A stretch of DNA of 64,000 nucleotides from Sphingomonas sp. CL5.1. GTDB taxonomy: Bacteria; Pseudomonadota; Alphaproteobacteria; Sphingomonadales; Sphingomonadaceae. The first letter of the stretch is position 1. Each line of letters begins with the position of its first letter. The notes beneath the pieces are model-generated. The model was not told where the DNA came from. It ran no database searches and saw nothing but the letters and a program-made list of their open reading frames with translations. Shown here piece after piece: positions 6,417 to 14,316 of this stretch. Where the stretch lies: NCBI RefSeq assembly GCF_013344685.1, contig NZ_CP050137.1, positions 1,492,001 through 1,556,000 on the forward strand. Reading direction: 5' to 3'. The position numbers were made by a program, and so were the translations under genes.

Positions 6417-6507
6417 GGAGCGGTGGCCGAGTGGTCGAAGGCGCTCGCCTGGAAAGTGAGTATACGGCAAAACCGTATCGAGGGTTCGAATCCCTCCCGC
6501 TCCGCCA
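6417..6507 (+). tRNA. tRNA-Ser (anticodon GGA)
   Basis: The 91-base sequence folds as a class II tRNA. The acceptor arm pairs GGAGCGG with CCGCTCC, followed by discriminator G and an encoded CCA. The anticodon stem pairs CTCGC with GTGAG around loop CTGGAAA, giving anticodon GGA (reads UCC/UCU). The long variable arm (TACGG with CCGTA) and the T arm with GGTTCGAATCC are complete. The DNA after the gene holds a transposase relic and AT-rich sequence, consistent with the 3' end of a tRNA serving as an integration site, although no att repeat was identified. Confidence 0.97.
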
Positions 6508-6989: not shown

Positions 6990-7082
6990 GCTTGGTCGTC
7001 CTGCATCAGCTAGATGATCAGGTTTGTTTGCTGCCGGTTTATGTTTCGTATGAACCGGCTTTTCGCTTCTTGGAGGGCAATC

Positions 7083-8210
7083 GTGTTCAATCGCAGCTTT
7101 CGCGAAGATGTCGTCCAGATCAGCGATGTCGTCGTCGGCCCCTTCGGTTTTGATACTTCCAGTTTGCTGGATCAGGTGCTCCGGCGTTTTGCCGAGTCCA
7201 TCGGAGCCGCGGCGGCGTTTCTGCTCGCGTCACCGGCGCAGGCGGAGGACAGGATCGTGACGGCCTATGTGCGCCGGGCGGATTCGCGCACGATTGATGC
7301 CAACCAATTGGCCGGCGACCTCAAGGATGAGTTATCGGCCCACCTCGATTCCTTCGATTGTGACGAGCCGCTTTTCTGGGCGGGGGAAGCGCACGCCCCT
7401 ATCCTGGTTTCACGCTGGGATGAATCGTCCCGGCTGTCCTATTATTTCGTCCTGTCCTTCGATCGTCAGAAGGATGCAGCCGACCGGCGGGCCATAGAGC
7501 ATTGCGTGGGTCTTTTCTTTCCGCTGCTCCAGCTTCACCTGAAGACCCTCGCGGAACTCGAGACGATGACGCGCAGCTTCGACGGAATGCGCGGCGTGCT
7601 CGACAACAGCGAGGTGGCGATCATCCTGTTCAGCCGCGAGGGCCGGATGATCCTGTCGAACAAGGCGGCGACCGATATCGTCGAAGCGCAGGACGGCTTG
7701 CGCATGGGCGGGCGCGGGCCGACGCCAACCTCGCTGCGCGCCGCCGCGCGCTTCCAGATCGCGCTGGAACATGCGATCGCGGAGAACGGCCGGCCGGGCC
7801 GGATGGGCAACGGGCGCGGCAGTGCGGTGATGAAGATCCCGCGCGAGGAGGGTCGCCGGCCGCTCATCGCCGCGCTGGTCCCGGCGAAGGAGACGGCGGA
7901 GATGCCGGGCGATCCGGCCGTCATACTCTATCTGTTCGATCCGACGCTGGAGCATCCCGAGTTCCTGGAGCCGATCTGCCAGCTTTACGAACTGTCGAAG
8001 GTGGAAGCGCGTCTCGCCTGCCATCTCGCAACTGGCATGACGCTGAGCGAGGCGGCGAGGACGATGCGCATCAAGGACCCGACCGCGCGCACCTATCTCA
8101 AGCAGATATTCGCCAAGACCGCCACGCACCGGCAGACCGATCTCGTCCGGCTGCTCCTGTGCAGCAGTGGCCGGATCGTCACGCAGACATCACCCGAAGC
8201 ATTCGTCTGA
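7083..8210 (+). CDS. LuxR-type helix-turn-helix transcriptional regulator
   Basis: A 375-residue protein with a C-terminal LuxR-like HTH (about residues 302-360: YELSKVEARLACHLATG, then LSEAARTM, and TARTYLKQIFAKTATHRQTDLVRLL). The region in front (about 170-290) looks like a PAS-type sensor (DNSEVAIILFSREGRMILSN), and the N-terminal 160 residues are an unassigned, possibly GAF-like region. GTG at 7083 is taken as start because GGAGGG lies five bases upstream; longer in-frame starts lack this. It is directly followed by a terminator and then the amyloid-like operon, so it is the obvious candidate regulator of that locus, which is an inference from position. The signal it senses is unknown. 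Confidence 0.85.
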   Translation: MFNRSFREDVVQISDVVVGPFGFDTSSLLDQVLRRFAESIGAAAAFLLASPAQAEDRIVTAYVRRADSRTIDANQLAGDLKDELSAHLDSFDCDEPLFWAGEAHAPILVSRWDESSRLSYYFVLSFDRQKDAADRRAIEHCVGLFFPLLQLHLKTLAELETMTRSFDGMRGVLDNSEVAIILFSREGRMILSNKAATDIVEAQDGLRMGGRGPTPTSLRAAARFQIALEHAIAENGRPGRMGNGRGSAVMKIPREEGRRPLIAALVPAKETAEMPGDPAVILYLFDPTLEHPEFLEPICQLYELSKVEARLACHLATGMTLSEAARTMRIKDPTARTYLKQIFAKTATHRQTDLVRLLLCSSGRIVTQTSPEAFV

Positions 8211-8268
8211 GATGCCCGCGGCGGCGGTCCGGAGGGCCGCCTTGCCGCCCCGCGAAAGCCTTCCAAGG

Positions 8269-8306
8269 CCCGATTCCGATATGGAGTCGGGGCTTTTCGC
8301 GTTTTT
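8269..8306 (+). terminator. Rho-independent terminator after the regulator gene
   Basis: CCCGATTCC and GGAGTCGGG pair over nine positions (one G-T) around a five-base loop, followed by CTTTTCGCGTTTTTC. The stem and T-rich tail sit about 60 bases after the regulator stop, so the operon downstream needs its own promoter. Confidence 0.8.
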
Positions 8307-8349
8307 CGAAAAATCGCTTCACTTTCGTGACATAGCGGCGGCCGCGCAT

Positions 8350-8368
8350 CTGTCCCTTTTCAGGACAG
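8350..8368. promoter_or_regulatory. TGTCC-N7-GGACA inverted repeat in the amyloid-operon leader
   Basis: CTGTCC and GGACAG form a perfect six-base dyad with a seven-base spacer. The same half-sites recur at 8464-8478, and a lone TGTCC lies at 8384. Repeated half-sites before the first structural gene suggest an operator or a structured transcript leader. Confidence 0.4.
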
Positions 8369-8412
8369 CCCCCATTTGAGGGGTGTCCATATCCCCATTT
8401 GAAGGTGCGCAT

Positions 8413-8451
8413 TTCCCCGACTTCGAGGGAGGCTCCGGCGGGGTCGGGGAA
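8413..8451. promoter_or_regulatory. Nine-base inverted repeat in the amyloid-operon leader
   Basis: TTCCCCGAC and GTCGGGGAA are exact reverse complements separated by 21 bases. The segment sits between the two TGTCC/GGACA dyads and 115 bases before the first gene. It could form a leader hairpin that controls translation or transcript stability; no ligand-sensing family is recognised. Confidence 0.4.
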
Positions 8452-8463
8452 TTACCAAAAGCA

Positions 8464-8478
8464 TGTCCGTTGAGGACA
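8464..8478. promoter_or_regulatory. TGTCC-N5-GGACA inverted repeat in the amyloid-operon leader
   Basis: TGTCC and GGACA repeat the half-sites of the dyad at 8350-8368 with a five-base spacer. The 8307-8565 stretch holds no gene; these dyads and the larger inverted repeat are its visible content. Confidence 0.4.
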
Positions 8479-8565
8479 GGCGACTCGGGGGCACCTCGGC
8501 ATAGGTCGACAGGCGTCAATGAACCCTTTCGCTGAAGCGACGAAGCATCATTGGGAGTGATAGCA

Positions 8566-9894
8566 ATGAAAACCAAGCTCTTGATCTCGACTTCTGCGGC
8601 AGCCCTGTTGCTGATTGGCGCGCCGGCATTCGCCGACGGAACCGCAGGCGCCGGCACATCGGCCGCCAATCAAGGCAGCCTCGCCACCGGCGACATTTCC
8701 GATAGTGGCAACACCTCGGGCAGCAATGTCGGCAACTCCAGCACGACCAACAACTCGACGACCAACGCGAACCTGAACACCAATCTCGCGAGCGGCAACA
8801 GCGCGAGCGACAGCTCGACGAACACCAGGACCGACACGATCGCCAGCGGCAACACGGCGACCGACAATTCGACCAACACCAAGACCACGAACCTCGCCAG
8901 CGGCAACACCACGGCGAGCGGCAACTCGGTCGGCAGCGGCAACACCGCCACCAACACCGACAATTCGACCAACACCAAGACCGCCACCATCGACAGCGGC
9001 AACACGGACAATTCGACCAACACCAAGACCACGAACCTCGCCAGCGGCAACACCACGGCAAGCGGTAATTCGGTCGGCAGCGGCAACACCGCCACCGACA
9101 ATTCGACCAACACCAAAACGAACACGATCGCGAGCGGCAACACCGCCACCGACAGTTCGACCAACACCAAGACCACGAACCTTGCGAGCGGCAACACCAC
9201 CGCCAGCGGCAATTCGGTCGGCAGCGGCAACACCAACACCGACAATTCGACCAACACCAAGACCGCGACGGTCGCCAGCGGCAATACGACCGCCAGCGGG
9301 AACACGGTGGCGAGCAACAACACCGACAATTCGACAAACACCAAGACCAACAATCTCGCCAGCAACAACACCACGGCGAGCGGGAACACGGTGGCCAGCG
9401 GCAACACGGTGGCCAGTGGCAACACCAGCAACACCACGACAAACCTGACGAAGAACGAGAACGATCAGCGCACGTTCAACAACAACGAGACCACCAACAC
9501 GTCGTTGACCAAGAACGAGAACGACCAGCGCACGTTCAACAACAACGAGACCACCAACACCGATAATTCGGTGAGCGTGGCCGACAGCGGCAACAACAGC
9601 GGCAACACGTCCGTCAGCTATGCGGCGACGAACAGCGTCGCGCCGACGTTCGCTTTCGGTGACGGCGCGCTGGTGGCGAGCGCCAACCTGTCCAACTCGG
9701 TGTCCGGCGTGAAGGTCTCCTTCTCCGGCATGGGCGGGCAGGCGGCGTCGGCCGACAACCACCTGTCGATCGAGGGCAGTTCGTTCCAGAACTTCGCCGG
9801 TATCCAGTCGATCAACCAGAACACCGGCGTGGGCGCCTCGCAGGCTTCCTCCGTCAGTGTCGCGGTTTCGACCCGCGATATCGCGATCCACTGA
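8566..9894 (+). CDS. Exported Asn/Thr/Ser/Gly repeat protein, candidate functional amyloid subunit
   Basis: A 442-residue protein with a clear signal peptide (MKTKLLISTSAAALLLIGAPAFA). Residues ~82-293 carry eight copies of the motif D(N/S)STNT(K/R)T joined by short and long SGNT-rich linkers in alternation. Then come two near-identical 20-residue units containing LTKNENDQRTFNNNETTN. The non-repetitive C-terminal ~110 residues include FQNFAGIQSINQNTGVGASQ, which resembles the end of FapB/FapC amyloid subunits of Pseudomonas. There are no cysteines and few aromatic residues. ATG at 8566 is preferred (GGGAGTGATAGC upstream) over TTG at 8551. With a C39 peptidase and a FapF-like pore downstream, the likely role is the main fibre subunit of an extracellular amyloid. 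That role is inferred from composition and context. Confidence 0.75.
   Translation: MKTKLLISTSAAALLLIGAPAFADGTAGAGTSAANQGSLATGDISDSGNTSGSNVGNSSTTNNSTTNANLNTNLASGNSASDSSTNTRTDTIASGNTATDNSTNTKTTNLASGNTTASGNSVGSGNTATNTDNSTNTKTATIDSGNTDNSTNTKTTNLASGNTTASGNSVGSGNTATDNSTNTKTNTIASGNTATDSSTNTKTTNLASGNTTASGNSVGSGNTNTDNSTNTKTATVASGNTTASGNTVASNNTDNSTNTKTNNLASNNTTASGNTVASGNTVASGNTSNTTTNLTKNENDQRTFNNNETTNTSLTKNENDQRTFNNNETTNTDNSVSVADSGNNSGNTSVSYAATNSVAPTFAFGDGALVASANLSNSVSGVKVSFSGMGGQAASADNHLSIEGSSFQNFAGIQSINQNTGVGASQASSVSVAVSTRDIAIH
8809..9444 (+). repeat. In-frame tandem repeats within the amyloid-like gene
   Basis: The DNA repeats units built on GACAATTCGACCAACACCAA. Units alternate between a short form (about 16-18 codons, ending IASGNT or similar) and a long form (about 30 codons, with LASGNTTASGNSVGSGNT), so the true period is a short+long pair of about 46-48 codons present nearly four times. 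Such repeats change copy number easily by slippage or recombination. Confidence 0.85.
9445..9564 (+). repeat. Direct duplication of a 60-base unit in the amyloid-like gene
   Basis: Two successive 60-base units encode nearly the same 20 residues (key residues KNENDQRTFNNNETTN). They are richer in charged residues than the preceding repeats and contain the only phenylalanine in the repetitive half, so they may form a linker or a separate fibre-core segment. Confidence 0.85.
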
Positions 9895-9954
9895 GGTGCC
9901 AGGGGCCGGCGGCGACCGTCGCCGGCCCATTCTTTCGATCGAGCGGAGGATAGC

Positions 9955-10287
9955 ATGTCCAGACTTGCTTTCGCCCTTGCGGTCATCGTGTCGGTGGCTC
10001 CGGCTTCCGCGCTTGCCCAGACCGCCTTCGACGCGGCGCCGATGAACGACGACACGTTGAAAGCCGTCGCGGGCCGCGAGGATATCGGCCAGGCCGCCTT
10101 CGCCAACCAGACCAACAATGTCAGCAACAACAGCGTGACGGGCAATTCCGTCACGGGCGCCGTGCGGATCGGCGACAACGCCTTCCAGAACATTTCCGGG
10201 CTGGCGGTGATCAACGTCAACAGCGGCAACAATGTCGCGATCAACAGCGCGATGAACGTCACCATCTCGCTCGCCCCCCGGAACTGA
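9955..10287 (+). CDS. Small exported protein of the amyloid-like locus (possible nucleator or minor subunit)
   Basis: A 110-residue protein with a signal peptide ending near ALAQ. After it comes NDDTLKAVAGRED, then an Asn/Ser/Val-rich stretch and a C-terminal FQNISGLAVINVNSGNNVAINSA. That tail matches the FQNFAGIQSINQNTGVG tail of the preceding repeat protein, so the two belong to one family. By analogy to fap operons it could be a nucleator like FapB or a minor subunit like FapE; sequence alone does not decide. The start has a strong GGAGGATAGC ribosome site. The gene is 60 bases after the repeat protein and probably in the same transcript. Confidence 0.7.
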   Translation: MSRLAFALAVIVSVAPASALAQTAFDAAPMNDDTLKAVAGREDIGQAAFANQTNNVSNNSVTGNSVTGAVRIGDNAFQNISGLAVINVNSGNNVAINSAMNVTISLAPRN

Positions 10288-10298
10288 CGGGGGCGGGG

Positions 10299-11018
10299 GT
10301 GACCGGGGGCCTGCGCCTCGCAGCATCGTCAGCCGGCCTCGCGGCCGGCTTGCTGTTGTCCGGCTGCTCCGCGCGGCTTTCCGGCGATCCCCATTTCATC
10401 AGCAGCGCCGTGCCCGGCGGCGAGTTCGTCGTGCCGGTCGCCTCGATGCAGGCGCGCCGTTTCAACACGGTGGTGCGCCAGCAATATGATTTCAGCTGCG
10501 GCTCCGCCGCGCTCGCCACCTTGCTGCGCTACCATTACGGCGACCCCCGGACCGAGGAGGACGTGTTCCGCGGCATGTGGCAGGATGGCGACCAGGCGCA
10601 GATCCGTCGGGTCGGCTTCTCCCTGCTCGACATGAAGCGCTATCTCGCCGCGCGGGGGCTGCGCGCCGACGGCTACAAGGTCGGCATCCAGGATATCGCG
10701 AAGCGCGGCATTCCGGGCATCGCGCTTATCACGGTGAAGAAATATCGCCATTTCGTCGTGCTCAAGGGCATCTCGAAGAACGAGGTGCTGCTCGGCGACC
10801 CCTCGCTCGGGTTGCGCACCATGCCGATCGCGGAGTTCGTCGCGGCGTGGAACGGCATCTATTTCGTGCTCAATTCGCGGCTCGATCTCGCGACGCACGC
10901 CTTCAACGTCCATACGCAATGGGCGAGCCTCGCCCGCGCGCCGACCGACGGCGCCTTCCTGCAACCGCTCAGCCAGCAGGCGCTCGCGCTTGCCGCGCCC
11001 TTCTACAGTGATTTCTGA
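10299..11018 (+). CDS. C39-family peptidase (FapD-like), exported
   Basis: A 239-residue peptidase-like protein. The papain-like C39 motif is intact: catalytic Cys in QYDFSCGSAALATLL, His in YRHFVVLKG and Asp in LLGDPSLG. The N-terminus is a signal sequence with a possible lipobox (LLSGC), so the enzyme would face the periplasm, unlike C39 domains fused to bacteriocin exporters. Fap operons encode the same kind of stand-alone C39 protein (FapD), required for fibre export. The GTG start at 10299 lies 11 bases after the previous stop. The following gene begins two bases after its stop, which indicates a tight operon. Confidence 0.88.
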   Translation: MTGGLRLAASSAGLAAGLLLSGCSARLSGDPHFISSAVPGGEFVVPVASMQARRFNTVVRQQYDFSCGSAALATLLRYHYGDPRTEEDVFRGMWQDGDQAQIRRVGFSLLDMKRYLAARGLRADGYKVGIQDIAKRGIPGIALITVKKYRHFVVLKGISKNEVLLGDPSLGLRTMPIAEFVAAWNGIYFVLNSRLDLATHAFNVHTQWASLARAPTDGAFLQPLSQQALALAAPFYSDF

Positions 11019-11020
11019 CG

Positions 11021-11788
11021 ATGTGCGTGCGGCGCATCCTGACCGGGCTGGCGATCGCCACCGCGATGCTCGTCGGCAGGCCGGCCTCGGCGGAGGCGGC
11101 GTTCGACAATCCGGTCGACGACGCGACGCTCGCGAGCAGCTACGGCAAGTTCCTCGCGCCGGGCGGCATCGATCTGGCGATGAGCGTCCAGTCGAGCACC
11201 ACGGTCAACGGCAACCTCGTGCTGCGCTCGGTGTTCAGCGTCGATCGCGGGCCGGGGACGCTCCAGGTGTTCGCGCCGCCCAGCGGCAGCAGCGGGCCGG
11301 AGGTTTCGCTTTCCGCCGCCGCGGGGACCGGCAACGTCCAGTCGAACATGAGCGGCAGCCAGGGCGTTTCCGTCTCGGTCGATCGCGCCACCGGCACGAC
11401 CATCATCCAGCCGACCCATGGCTCCGCCGTCACGCCGGTCGTGTCGGTCAACAGCGCGCAGATCTCCGTCGCGGCACCCGCCGACAACAGCGGGCTGGTG
11501 CAGGTCACGCCCGCCGCCGCCGGGGTCGAGACGGGCGCGGGCGTGGTGTCGGTCACCGCGGTGGCGGCGGGCGCGCGCGTGACGCTCGACGGCGCCGGGT
11601 TCAGCATCAGCCATCTGGTCGGCGCGGCGACCGGCGCGGTGATCGCCAACACCGCCAACGATCGCGTCATCGACACGGTGACCAACGTGCAGATCGATCT
11701 CCACAATGCGCAGGCGATGGCGCTCGGCTCGGCGATGCTGCGCGTGGATTCGCTGGTGAGCGCGGCGACGCGCGCGATGTTCCATTGA
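11021..11788 (+). CDS. Exported protein of unknown function in the amyloid-like locus
   Basis: A 255-residue protein with a signal peptide (ending near RPASAEA). The mature N-terminus has DDATLASSYGKFLAPGGIDLAMS followed by VNGNLVLRS. The rest is Ala/Val/Gly/Ser rich, predicted beta-prone and almost devoid of cysteine. The DDATL motif right after the signal echoes NDDTL in the small protein two genes upstream. No known domain is recognised. Position between the C39 peptidase and the outer-membrane pore is where Pseudomonas has fapE, so a secreted minor component or export factor is a reasonable but unproven guess. Confidence 0.6.
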   Translation: MCVRRILTGLAIATAMLVGRPASAEAAFDNPVDDATLASSYGKFLAPGGIDLAMSVQSSTTVNGNLVLRSVFSVDRGPGTLQVFAPPSGSSGPEVSLSAAAGTGNVQSNMSGSQGVSVSVDRATGTTIIQPTHGSAVTPVVSVNSAQISVAAPADNSGLVQVTPAAAGVETGAGVVSVTAVAAGARVTLDGAGFSISHLVGAATGAVIANTANDRVIDTVTNVQIDLHNAQAMALGSAMLRVDSLVSAATRAMFH

Positions 11789-11804
11789 CGTCAGGGGAGT
11801 GGGC

Positions 11805-13136
11805 ATGAACTGGAAAGGCTGTGCGCTGGCCGCCGTGATGATCGTATCGGCCACCCCCGCCAGCGCCGCGCCGGTGAGCGCGCTCACCAGATTACGAGCG
11901 GAGCTGGCGGCGGCGAAGGCGCAGATCACCGCGCAGCAGCAGGAGCTGGAGGCGCAGGAGAAGCGTCTCCGCTCGATCGAGGAGCGCCTTTCCGTGCCTG
12001 GTGAAGTCGTCACCGCCGCCGCTCTCCCGGCCGGCGTCGCGCAAGCGCCGGTGGCGGCGGCGGCTCCCTCGCCCGCCGGGGGCGGTTCCCCCGCGTCGGG
12101 CGAGGTGGCCGCCGCGCAGCAGCCGCACGCGCCGATCGAGCGCGTCGGGCAGGCCGCGCCGAACAGCGACCGGCCGCCCGAGGTGGCGGTGCTGGGGACC
12201 GAGGGGTCGGTCGTCACGCGCAAGGGCCAGCTCACCACCGAGTTCGGCCTCGAATATGCCCGCGCCGACCGCAACCAGGCGCTGTTCCGCGGCATCGAGC
12301 TGGTCGAATCCGTGCTGGTCGGCGTGTTCAACATCAGCCAGAGCCGGCAGGATATCGTCACCGCCTCGGGCGCGCTGCGCTATGGCATCACCGACAAGCT
12401 GGAGCTGGGCGTGCGCGTGCCCTTCGTTCACCGTTCGGACAATCTCGTCACCACGCCGATCGGCCAGAACAACGATACCGAATCGGTGGTCGCCGCGCAG
12501 GGCAACAGCCTTGGTGATATCGAGATGACCGCGCGCTACCAGTTCCTCGGTGCGCATGGCGGCTGGCCGTATCTGATCGGCAACCTGCAAGTCGTCGCGC
12601 CCACCGGCACCAATCCCTTCACCCTGCCGCGCACCGCGACCGGCGAGGAGAAGGAGGCCGCGACCGGCGCCGGCTTCTGGGGCGTGACGCCGAGCATCAC
12701 CGCGATCCTGCCGACCGATCCGGCGGTGCTGTTCGGCACCCTGGGCTATACCAAGAACTTCGGCCGCAGTTTCAACACCCAGATCGGCTCGGTCGTGATC
12801 GACCGGGTCAATCCGGGCGACGGCATCTCGTTCAGCGGCGGCATCGGCATCTCGCTCAACCAGCGCACCTCGATCAACCTTGGCTATGCGCATACCTGGG
12901 CGTTTGGCACGCGGACGTTCAGCCATCTGCTCAACCCGTCGAACAATCCCGACCTGAACGGCGAGCTTCAGCAGGTTTCGCGCGATCTCCAGATCGGCCG
13001 CTTCCTGTTCGGCATGACCTATCGCGTGAGCGACCGGGCGAGCCTCAACTGGTCGGTCGAGGTGGGAGCGACGCAGGACGCGCCCGATCTCCGTACCTCG
13101 ATACGCATACCCCTCGTCCTCTTCACCGGCGGCTAG
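11805..13136 (+). CDS. FapF-like outer-membrane transporter with N-terminal coiled coil
   Basis: A 443-residue protein with three parts: a signal peptide (ending ATPASAA), a coiled coil at about residues 28-62 (LRAELAAAKAQITAQQQELE and on), and, after a Pro/Ala-rich linker, a beta-barrel of about 310 residues starting at VAVLGTEGSVVTRKGQL. The barrel contains FRGIELVESVLVG and LRYGITDKLELGVRVPF, typical of the FapF / phenol-degradation MetA-like transporter family. FapF is the trimeric pore that exports amyloid subunits, with the coiled coil acting as a plug. ATG at 11805 follows AGGGGAGTGGGC. It closes the operon. Confidence 0.82.
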   Translation: MNWKGCALAAVMIVSATPASAAPVSALTRLRAELAAAKAQITAQQQELEAQEKRLRSIEERLSVPGEVVTAAALPAGVAQAPVAAAAPSPAGGGSPASGEVAAAQQPHAPIERVGQAAPNSDRPPEVAVLGTEGSVVTRKGQLTTEFGLEYARADRNQALFRGIELVESVLVGVFNISQSRQDIVTASGALRYGITDKLELGVRVPFVHRSDNLVTTPIGQNNDTESVVAAQGNSLGDIEMTARYQFLGAHGGWPYLIGNLQVVAPTGTNPFTLPRTATGEEKEAATGAGFWGVTPSITAILPTDPAVLFGTLGYTKNFGRSFNTQIGSVVIDRVNPGDGISFSGGIGISLNQRTSINLGYAHTWAFGTRTFSHLLNPSNNPDLNGELQQVSRDLQIGRFLFGMTYRVSDRASLNWSVEVGATQDAPDLRTSIRIPLVLFTGG

Positions 13137-13761: not shown

Positions 13762-14316
13762 TTGGGCGAGACGGATCCCGATGCAGAGCTGGTGCGGCGT
13801 GTCGGCCAGGGCGACGAGGCGGCGGCGCGCCTGCTCGTTTCGGCCAAGCTGCCGCGCGTGCTGGCGCTGGCGCGGCGCATGACCGGCGAACGCGGAGAAG
13901 CGGAGGACATCGCGCAGGAGGTGTTCCTGCGGGTATGGCGGCACGCGCGGCGCTGGCGGCCCGGCGCGGCGCGTTTCGATACCTGGCTGCATGTGGTGAC
14001 GCTCAACCTTTGCCGCGACCGGCTGCGCCGCCGCCGCGAGACGACCATGCCGACGCTGCCGGAGGTGGCCGATCCCGCGCCGGACGCCGCGCGCGCGCTG
14101 GACGAGTCGGCGCGCGGCCGCGCGGTCGCCGCCGCGATCGCCGCCTTGCCGGAACGCCAGCGCGAGGCGATCCTGCTCGTCCATTATCAGGATATGACCA
14201 ACATCGCCGCCGCTGAGGCTCTGTCGGTGAGCGTGGAGGCGCTCGAAAGCCTGCTGGCGCGGGGCCGGCGGGCGTTGCGGGAGCATTTCAGGAACCAGGA
14301 GGCGCGTGATGACTGA
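13762..14316 (+). CDS. ECF-type RNA polymerase sigma factor
   Basis: A 184-residue sigma-70 family protein with the two ECF domains. Region 2 shows EDIAQEVFLRVWRHA and RFDTWLHVVTLNLCRDRLRR; region 4 shows LPERQREAILLVHYQDMTNIAAAEALSVSVEALESLLARGR. Start is a TTG, giving MGETDPDAELVRRVGQGDEAAAR, the usual ECF N-terminus. Its stop overlaps the next gene, which has the look of an anti-sigma factor. It probably directs its own operon and envelope or metal stress genes; no matching promoter motif was searched for. Confidence 0.9.
   Translation: MGETDPDAELVRRVGQGDEAAARLLVSAKLPRVLALARRMTGERGEAEDIAQEVFLRVWRHARRWRPGAARFDTWLHVVTLNLCRDRLRRRRETTMPTLPEVADPAPDAARALDESARGRAVAAAIAALPERQREAILLVHYQDMTNIAAAEALSVSVEALESLLARGRRALREHFRNQEARDD

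Follow-up and report, generated by a model that had tools for sequence, protein, structure and literature searches.

A probable sister class of Fap secretion encoded by a six-gene locus of Sphingomonas sp. CL5.1

Introduction

The operon fapABCDEF of Pseudomonas is among the closest described relatives of a six-gene locus detected at positions 7083-13136, on the forward strand, of a 64,000-nt stretch of Sphingomonas sp. CL5.1 (NZ_CP050137.1; this whole stretch is called the window below, and positions refer to it). The literature background given here is drawn from excerpts of the cited papers. FapB and FapC are characterized by imperfect repeats with the minimal motif G-x4-N-x3-G-x6-N, nearly always three in number (PMC3792158, PMC12822426). 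Secretion of FapC requires the fibre components FapB and FapE and, in Pseudomonas, is blocked by the substitution C38A of the active-site cysteine of the peptidase FapD (PMC5557850). In 2017 the target of FapD was called unclear: no canonical C39 sequence was reported in the Fap proteins, GG/GA motifs suggested a processing of FapE, N-terminal peptides were lacking for FapE alone and FapE was suggested as the substrate, the C39 peptidases of ABC (ATP-binding cassette) exporters usually cutting after GG and sometimes after GA (PMC5557850). A review of 2025 describes FapD as 'thought to process' FapE and FapF (PMC12822426).

Two other systems combine a C39 peptidase with a FapF-like barrel. The nap island of Neisseria contains the barrel NapF, the peptidase NapP and double-glycine substrates, which are cationic GG peptides of less than 10 kDa exported by NapP/NapF; these small peptides are reported in autolysis (PMC11798529). 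The Fil system, a putative pilus system, is represented by the NCBIfam models FilB and FilC. Concerning the distribution of Fap, a survey of 2013 found it only in Beta-, Gamma- and Deltaproteobacteria. A screen of 2018 that required at least four fap-gene homologues also reported fapD/fapF neighbours in five further phyla, so FapD- and FapF-like genes were already known as a pair; the section on this screen gives no cargo for these neighbours (PMC6173800). Two screens of 2025 require a hidden Markov model (HMM) of the repeat (PMC12392863, PMC12822426) and would therefore pass over the branch described below. Literature searches on FapF in Alphaproteobacteria and on FapC/FapF in sphingomonads showed no description of the locus among the matches listed, subscription journals being mostly outside their coverage.

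We propose, with a probability of about two in three, that the locus of the window belongs to a sister class of Fap secretion whose product would be a fibre or coat on the cell surface. The homologies, the gene order, a leader motif, an RNA hairpin, the linkage of a regulator and the separate branch in phylogenetic trees were all obtained by computation.

Results

Homologues of FapF, FapD, FapE and FapB

The locus is composed of a LuxR-type regulator gene followed, after 355 nt, by five closely packed genes coding for a repeat protein (REP), a small protein (SML), a C39 peptidase, an exported protein (EXP) and a barrel protein, with intergenic spacings of 60, 11, 2 and 16 nt. An earlier reading of the window, made by a model from the letters alone (the sequence-only reading), had described these six genes in this layout; all are indeed co-directional and the description is borne out, as is the sphingomonad-type host. 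The order REP-SML-C39-EXP-barrel recurs across many other genomes and, together with the linkage of the regulator, this indicates that the gene set is not due to chance. The profile searches against Fap families that the same reading had recommended match the peptidase, the barrel, EXP and SML to Fap counterparts.

Related loci were compared in two sets, the canonical Fap loci and the loci of a second branch that includes the clade of the window (29 C39 sequences). The starting sets comprised 89 and 26 C39 loci; L110, L111 and L112 (taken as Fil-like) and L046 were dropped, L145 and L164 were moved by hand to the second branch, and the edited sets contained 90 second-branch and 21 canonical C39 sequences. 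Four clade-type loci absent from the clade list (L126, L127, L133 and L140) are counted in the 'other' second-branch sets. The relatives were found by a contig scan with one short peptide pattern that kept 80 of 110 relatives, which makes the set a sample and not a census. Only identical proteins or gaps were removed as redundant, and close relatives are therefore counted repeatedly. Genes were called by a custom script, with some truncated starts. Among 88 second-branch loci, no EXP was recognised next to the C39 gene in 7 and no SML in 5.

The barrel protein displays an N-terminal coiled coil (about residues 28-63) and a beta-barrel (about residues 114-443) with an APTG motif. A FapF-like fold had been set beforehand as a test of the sequence-only reading; the protein matches the solved FapF structure 5o67 at 1.2e-33 over residues 122-437 in a sequence search, and a profile of 14 barrel sequences matches it at 1.5e-55. 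By homology, the protein would have the trimeric 12-strand barrel, the plug and the coiled coil that define FapF. The NCBIfam model of FapF (NF058560) is matched over residues 8-437 at 2.1e-47, with 161.9 bits against an equivalog cut-off of 700 bits; this failure excludes little, because canonical-type loci of other families also miss the cut-off (about 340-402 bits). A library hit to DUF2490 was below its cut-off and was set aside.

The peptidase matches PF03412 at 8.5e-19 and, by reading, has Cys67, His151 and Asp167 in the expected motifs, in agreement with the intact Cys-His-Asp seen by the sequence-only reading. The NCBIfam model of FapD (NF058616) gives 3.5e-46 and 157.3 bits, against an equivalog cut-off of 330 bits. 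A lipobox, searched by regular expression, is present in 16 of the 29 C39 sequences of the clade (window included) versus 7/59 in the other second-branch loci and 2/21 in the canonical ones, which suggests that the peptidase may be anchored at the outer membrane. A third C39 domain of the genome (G000:C1:1436579-1436932) lies in a 765-codon frame that probably encodes an ABC exporter.

Scans of Pfam and NCBIfam gave no family for REP, SML and EXP, the hits to LRR_5 and TIG being below cut-off and set aside, and a sequence search of the PDB was uninformative for SML, EXP and the regulator. Profile-profile alignment with hhalign was more informative. The 29 EXP sequences of the clade match 21 FapE sequences with a probability of 96.0 (E 3.8e-9, 199 columns), and the 29 SML sequences match 19 FapB sequences with a probability of 90.7 (E 1.2e-6, 91 columns). 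The controls are silent: reversed profiles give 0.2 (EXP-FapE) and 0.6 (SML-FapB), and 30 column-shuffled profiles of each give at most 0.4 and 0.6, respectively. EXP is also located between the peptidase and the barrel, like FapE. The SML of the other second-branch loci match FapB with a probability of 76.0. SML has at least 605 relatives; among the 120 listed, none has a Pfam domain and the named ones are hypothetical or uncharacterised proteins. The AlphaFold2 model of SML, of low confidence, has a helix spanning the leader and two strands near the C-terminus (mean predicted local distance difference test, pLDDT, 59.3).

Phylogeny and distribution

In the tree of 79 barrels, the canonical sequences form a group of 18 rows (Shimodaira-Hasegawa-like approximate likelihood ratio test, SH-aLRT, 92) and the second branch a group of 57 rows (99), in which the clade of the window is composed of 21 rows (100), assigned to Sphingomonadales by name or by placement. 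The C39 tree agrees, with 20 canonical rows (97), 48 rows in the second branch (94) and 19 in the clade (99). Both are quick trees, without bootstrap, with a midpoint root used for drawing only and with some long branches. The same two-branch split in both supports the new branch that the sequence-only reading had considered.

The second branch occurs in Alpha- and Gammaproteobacteria, in Sphingomonas, Erythrobacter, Polymorphobacter, Sphingobium, Caulobacteraceae, Rhodospirillales, Halomonadaceae and others. On four Halomonadaceae contigs (L158, L160, L172 and L176) a canonical and a second-branch operon adjoin, three of them being confirmed in the C39 tree, and one genome (G121) carries a canonical-like fap operon (L052) in addition to a locus of the clade (L041). 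A match to the barrel is found in 25/149 genomes of the family (canonical-like barrels included) and in 23/121 genomes of the genus, the genome of the window being counted in both; across the phylum, 42/398 genomes contain a match to the FapF model, which exceeds the cut-off in 7.

Canonical-like fap operons were also observed in Sphingomonadaceae (L045, L047, L048, L050, L051 and L052). In several of them fapE and fapF are separated by an additional gene of about 200 aa, which in L047 contains a peptidoglycan-binding domain. The genome of the window encodes a second FapF-like system of another subtype (L028, G000:C1:2753000-2771000), with the order REP-SML-C39-EXP, a convergent barrel gene, and Crp/cNMP-type and short LuxR-type regulators.

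REP and the Fap repeat

REP is a protein of 442 aa with a signal peptide (by inspection), and the DNA of its repeat region contains repeats with periods of 18-144 bp. Its middle part is composed of 77% N/S/T/D/G and 8% hydrophobic residues. The corresponding values are 63-91% and 2-13% in 14 other members of the clade, versus 43-61% and 17-27% in eight proteins at the FapC position; the composition of the C-terminal 92-95 residues of REP and of the last 70 residues of SML is closer to that of canonical repeats. A search for a periodicity common to the REP repeats was negative, the best period ranging from 3 to 52 residues between species. AlphaFold2 predicts no strand in REP, in a model of low confidence (mean pLDDT 38.8). 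The sequence-only reading had taken the repeat of REP as the locus's own version of a Fap-type subunit repeat. This part of it is not supported as stated, the long repeat being hydrophilic, variable between species and predicted without a strand.

The strict repeat pattern is present in 19/19 FapB and 17/18 FapC of the canonical loci versus 0/28 REP and 0/29 SML of the clade; in the other second-branch loci it is found in 2/48 REP and 2/54 SML. An HMM of 103 canonical repeats (E<0.1) detects none in the second-branch genes, window included (0/28, 0/29, 0/53 and 0/54), versus 20/20 and 17/19 genes at the canonical positions, the same genes that supplied the repeats. By the repeat criterion, as read from the sequence, the locus is not a Fap operon. 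Since the repeat is absent, the subunit order differs and the barrel and the peptidase fall in a separate branch, it is not considered as strict Fap.

The C-terminal motif FQN...G-I that the sequence-only reading had noticed in both REP and SML is real, the two profiles matching with a probability of 96.0 (E 4.3e-9) versus 0.1 for reversed SML. This region of REP contains the core G-x4-N-x3-G in 27 of the 28 sequences of the clade (4.6 expected by shuffling), and the core is found in 14/29 SML of the clade (2.3 expected) and in 21/54 other second-branch SML (6.9 expected). A direct link between the C-terminus of REP and FapC or its repeat was rejected as too weak, and the link was drawn through the SML-FapB and REP-SML matches. 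We infer that the hairpin domain of SML and of the C-terminus of REP, and not the long repeat, may polymerise.

A leader motif as candidate peptidase site

A double-glycine leader has hydrophobic residues at positions -12, -7 and -4, Gly at -2 and Gly or Ala at -1. The pattern [LM]x4G[GKR], searched within residues 13-110, is present in 82/83 EXP, 67/83 SML and 19/21 canonical FapE; membership of the EXP and SML sets depends on profiles covering the leader, a bias that favours its detection. Elsewhere it is found in 5/76 REP, 3/38 FapB/FapC, 5/79 barrels, 29/90 second-branch C39 and 3/21 canonical C39. When only L is allowed at the first position (residues 16-110), the observed counts are 73 for EXP, 63 for SML and 18 for FapE (shuffled expectation 13.0, 6.2 and 2.8), next to 2 for REP, 3 for FapB/FapC, 5 for the barrels and 3/21 for the canonical C39 (expectation 3.6, 2.6, 6.4 and 2.4).

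Sites were chosen by requiring L/M at -7 and Gly at -2, with a score for favoured residues at -1, -3, -4, -8 and -9. No candidate was obtained in 0/29 clade EXP, 1/54 other EXP, 1/21 FapE, 1/29 clade SML and 1/54 other SML. The residue at -12, which was not used for the choice, is V/L/I/M in 28/29 clade EXP, 51/53 other EXP, 20/20 FapE, 26/28 clade SML and 46/53 other SML. Gly at -1 is observed in 21/29 clade EXP and 53/53 other EXP, in 0/20 FapE, and in 0/28 clade and 23/53 other SML. The leader of EXP ends with RGG in most relatives of the clade; outside the clade it is mostly [ED]LxxLRGG-F, and that of canonical FapE is mostly ELxxMRG[KR]-[FY]. The two canonical FapE missed by the pattern are those of L084 and L052, where the motif is located upstream and at the called start, respectively. 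These data suggest that the cut site of FapD and of its C39 relatives may be a double-glycine-type leader, the idea of FapE as a substrate belonging to the authors of 2017. In L112, taken as Fil-like, a putative cargo encoded upstream of the C39 gene opens with the leader-like stretch GLEQATGQAGLT.

An RNA hairpin after the predicted major-subunit gene

The gap between REP and SML contains a GC-rich hairpin that is predicted to act as an mRNA stabiliser or as a partial terminator. Perfect stems of at least 9 bp (G-T allowed) were counted in the equivalent gaps, the expectation being taken from dinucleotide shuffles. Such a stem follows REP in 19/28 gaps of the clade (1.5 expected) and in 41/46 gaps of the other second-branch loci (4.2 expected), five further second-branch loci being skipped for the length of the gap. 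In the canonical loci a stem is present between fapC and fapD in 14 of the 16 gaps in range (1.9 expected; e.g. L085, L088 and L158) and between fapB and fapC in 0/14 (0.0 expected), a weak contrast since the latter gaps measure only 26-68 nt. Other same-strand gaps of these loci, used as control, gave 8/59 (3.1 expected). In other operons the ratio of the subunits is set by such hairpins (PMC4423207, PMC9045158), and the position of this one would mark REP as the counterpart of FapC without recourse to sequence similarity. A literature search on intergenic stem-loops or terminators of fap returned no fap paper among the matches listed, and the excerpts of the Fap literature compared mention neither a leader behind the signal peptide nor a hairpin after the major-subunit gene. 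Another hairpin, located upstream of the regulator (7033-7059), is by eye not visibly conserved in relatives.

The linked regulator

The regulator gene has a GTG start preceded by GGAGGG, and its product matches PF00196 weakly (17.1 bits versus a cut-off of 23.5). Of the 27 countable loci of the clade, 20 encode a homologue at most two genes before REP, versus 0/471 among the remaining genes of these loci. Within five genes of C39 it is found in 2/59 'other' loci, both of the clade type (L126 and L133), and in 0/26 loci of the canonical set; the genome of the window has one full-length match. The dedicated regulator claimed by the sequence-only reading is thus supported. Upstream of REP, at 8370-8402, the sequence CCCCATTTGA occurs twice and may represent regulator sites; it is not clearly conserved in relatives.

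Table 1. Features of the locus (positions in the window).
Feature	Position	Strand	Basis
LuxR-type regulator, very weak PAS-like middle, C-terminal helix-turn-helix	7083-8210	+	
REP: exported protein with signal peptide, low-complexity repeats and SML-like C-terminal domain, predicted as major subunit	8566-9894	+	
REP hydrophilic repeat region, TDNSTNTKT / ASGNT units	8786-9560	+	tandem repeats, composition
REP C-terminal single Fap-repeat-like stretch, G-x4-N-x3-G core	9757-9873	+	
GC-rich hairpin in the REP-SML gap, 11 bp stem, 4-nt loop	9903-9928	+	
SML: small exported protein, FapB-like, one degenerate repeat	9955-10287	+	hhalign
SML leader LKAVAGR, residues 35-41, candidate C39 recognition site	10057-10077	+	
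C39 peptidase: FapD homologue, predicted lipoprotein	10299-11018	+	PF03412, NF058616
C39 lipobox LSGC, Cys23, Ser at +2	10356-10367	+	sequence, regular expression
EXP: exported FapE homologue	11021-11788	+	hhalign
EXP leader LASSYGK, residues 37-43	11129-11149	+	
Barrel: FapF homologue	11805-13136	+	PDB 5o67, profile, NF058560, alignment

Neighbouring genes

A tRNA-Ser(GGA) gene is present upstream of the locus (6417-6507). Downstream, the segment 13329-15142 contains genes for an EF-hand protein, an extracytoplasmic function (ECF) sigma factor, a small protein (possibly an anti-sigma factor) and a Metal_resist protein, a group likely involved in metal response and unrelated to the locus. In the other loci no called gene is homologous to the EF-hand gene, and the sigma factor gene (13762-14316) has a homologue in three Phenylobacterium loci only (L147, L150 and L155), where it sits directly before the barrel gene. 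Both were set aside as parts of the locus for this lack or near-lack of homologues.

Discussion

The locus shares with fapABCDEF the D-E-F order, the FapB-like small subunit, the signal peptides, the hairpin after the predicted major-subunit gene and a leader-like motif on the FapE-like protein. It differs in several respects: no FapA-like gene is recognised, the order of the subunits is major-minor (REP before SML) instead of FapB-FapC, one degenerate repeat is found versus three imperfect repeats, and a hydrophilic repeat protein takes the place of FapC. In the clade of the window the peptidase is often a predicted lipoprotein and a LuxR-type regulator is linked, and the window proteins score far under the FapD and FapF equivalog cut-offs. 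Of the sequence-only reading, the homology, the dedicated regulator and the new branch are supported; the view of a Fap-type amyloid locus whose subunits have a repeat of their own is, in that form, not supported.

It could be argued that the locus is a diverged canonical Fap operon, in which REP is FapC and its repeat the amyloid core. The homologous FapB-, FapD-, FapE- and FapF-like genes, and a hairpin placed after REP as after fapC, would be expected in that case. We nevertheless regard it as unlikely, as the imperfect repeat is absent from REP and SML by regular expression and by HMM, the REP repeats are hydrophilic and differ between species, and the locus falls in a separate branch of both trees, with G121 carrying a canonical-like operon beside a locus of the clade. 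The leader motif on SML and EXP recalls the nap island, in which GG peptides are found together with a C39 peptidase and a homologue of FapF (PMC11798529), and the peptidase and the barrel might export small double-glycine signal or killing/autolysis peptides, REP being an accessory. This is quite improbable: SML and EXP resemble FapB and FapE, the fibre components needed for FapC secretion (PMC5557850), REP lies before SML wherever the gene calls of the clade are usable and is followed by the hairpin, and beyond its leader the SML of the window (2 K/R, 3 D/E) is not cationic, unlike the nap peptides. The nap island, compared by description only, is also presented in the cited excerpt without any FapE-like, FapB-like or repeat protein (PMC11798529).

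A Fil-type putative pilus system would account for the matches to FilB (1.8e-32) and FilC (3.3e-18), and we consider it very improbable given that the FapD and FapF models score higher on the same peptidase and barrel (157 versus 113 bits and 162 versus 66 bits), for which FilB and FilC are not the best-scoring models. In addition, the barrels of the two loci taken as Fil-like (L111 and L112) are on a long separate branch, and these loci have other neighbouring genes. Finally, the barrel gives a sub-threshold hit to PF13557 (0.0045) and FapF is structurally related to phenol-degradation-type uptake channels (PMC5557850). That the barrel is such a channel, with unrelated neighbours, is hardly credible when an operon with C39 and FapE/FapB-like genes recurs across Alpha- and Gammaproteobacteria and when the match to the FapF model covers residues 8-437, coiled-coil region included.

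Several observations weigh against the sister class that we favour. Outside the clade, EXP matches FapE (94.7) over 40 columns only, and in the region of the leader SML aligns with FapE (76.6) and EXP (86.9) as well, which implies that the similarity between these proteins comes in part from the leader. AlphaFold2 yields no confident fold for either REP or SML. The C-terminus of REP matches the canonical repeat profile, FapB and FapC only weakly (probabilities of 25.5, 7.1 and 0.9), and outside the clade the G-x4-N-x3-G core in REP is little over chance (21/48, 14.5 expected). Concerning the leader, the residue at -1 is R/K in canonical FapE and in both EXP and SML of the window, some loci, several of Brevundimonas among them, have a degenerate leader in SML, and the L-only pattern is above chance in second-branch C39 themselves (25/90, 11.7 expected). 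In Pseudomonas, mass spectrometry missed about 70 first residues of FapE versus a predicted leader of about 40 residues (PMC5557850). The lipobox is not universal in the clade, partly through truncated start calls. Lastly, as no FapA-like gene was recognised at the locus, there is no known chaperone to keep the subunits unfolded.

For the sister class, the substrate of the peptidase, the direction of export, the stacking, the stoichiometry and the function are inferred, and we propose the following mechanism. REP, SML, EXP, the peptidase and the barrel would leave the cytoplasm by Sec, in line with signal peptides seen by inspection. The lipid-anchored peptidase would be periplasmic, probably attached to the outer membrane next to the pore, and would clip a second, double-glycine-type leader from EXP and SML, while REP, which has no such leader, would stay unclipped, as FapB and FapC. 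The FapF-like barrel with its coiled coil would then let the subunits through. At the cell surface, REP and SML may stack via their shared single Fap-repeat-like hairpin, SML as the minor or nucleating subunit and REP as the major one, which would display a long repeat, rich in N/S/T/D/G and particular to the species. Owing to the RNA hairpin behind its gene, REP would exceed the other products, and the LuxR-type protein would switch the operon.

A more far-reaching version, which we hold only tentatively and which could go either way, would be that of a widespread second Fap class with a single cross-beta layer per subunit and a hypervariable hydrophilic brush, in which C39 cuts the FapE-like leader in both classes and the FapB-like leader in the second class, so that FapD substrates are readable from the sequence; this class would lie outside the screens that require the repeat. 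The relatives carry near-textbook double-glycine leaders where canonical FapE has ELxxMRG[KR], and since these leaders are at the FapE-equivalent position, the question of the FapD target becomes testable with one mutant. The hairpin following the gene of the predicted major subunit marks the main cargo independently of sequence similarity. The branch also shows a FapD/E/F-type export module in company of cargo devoid of Fap repeats, and it provides a natural set of fibre candidates with differing hydrophilic displays.

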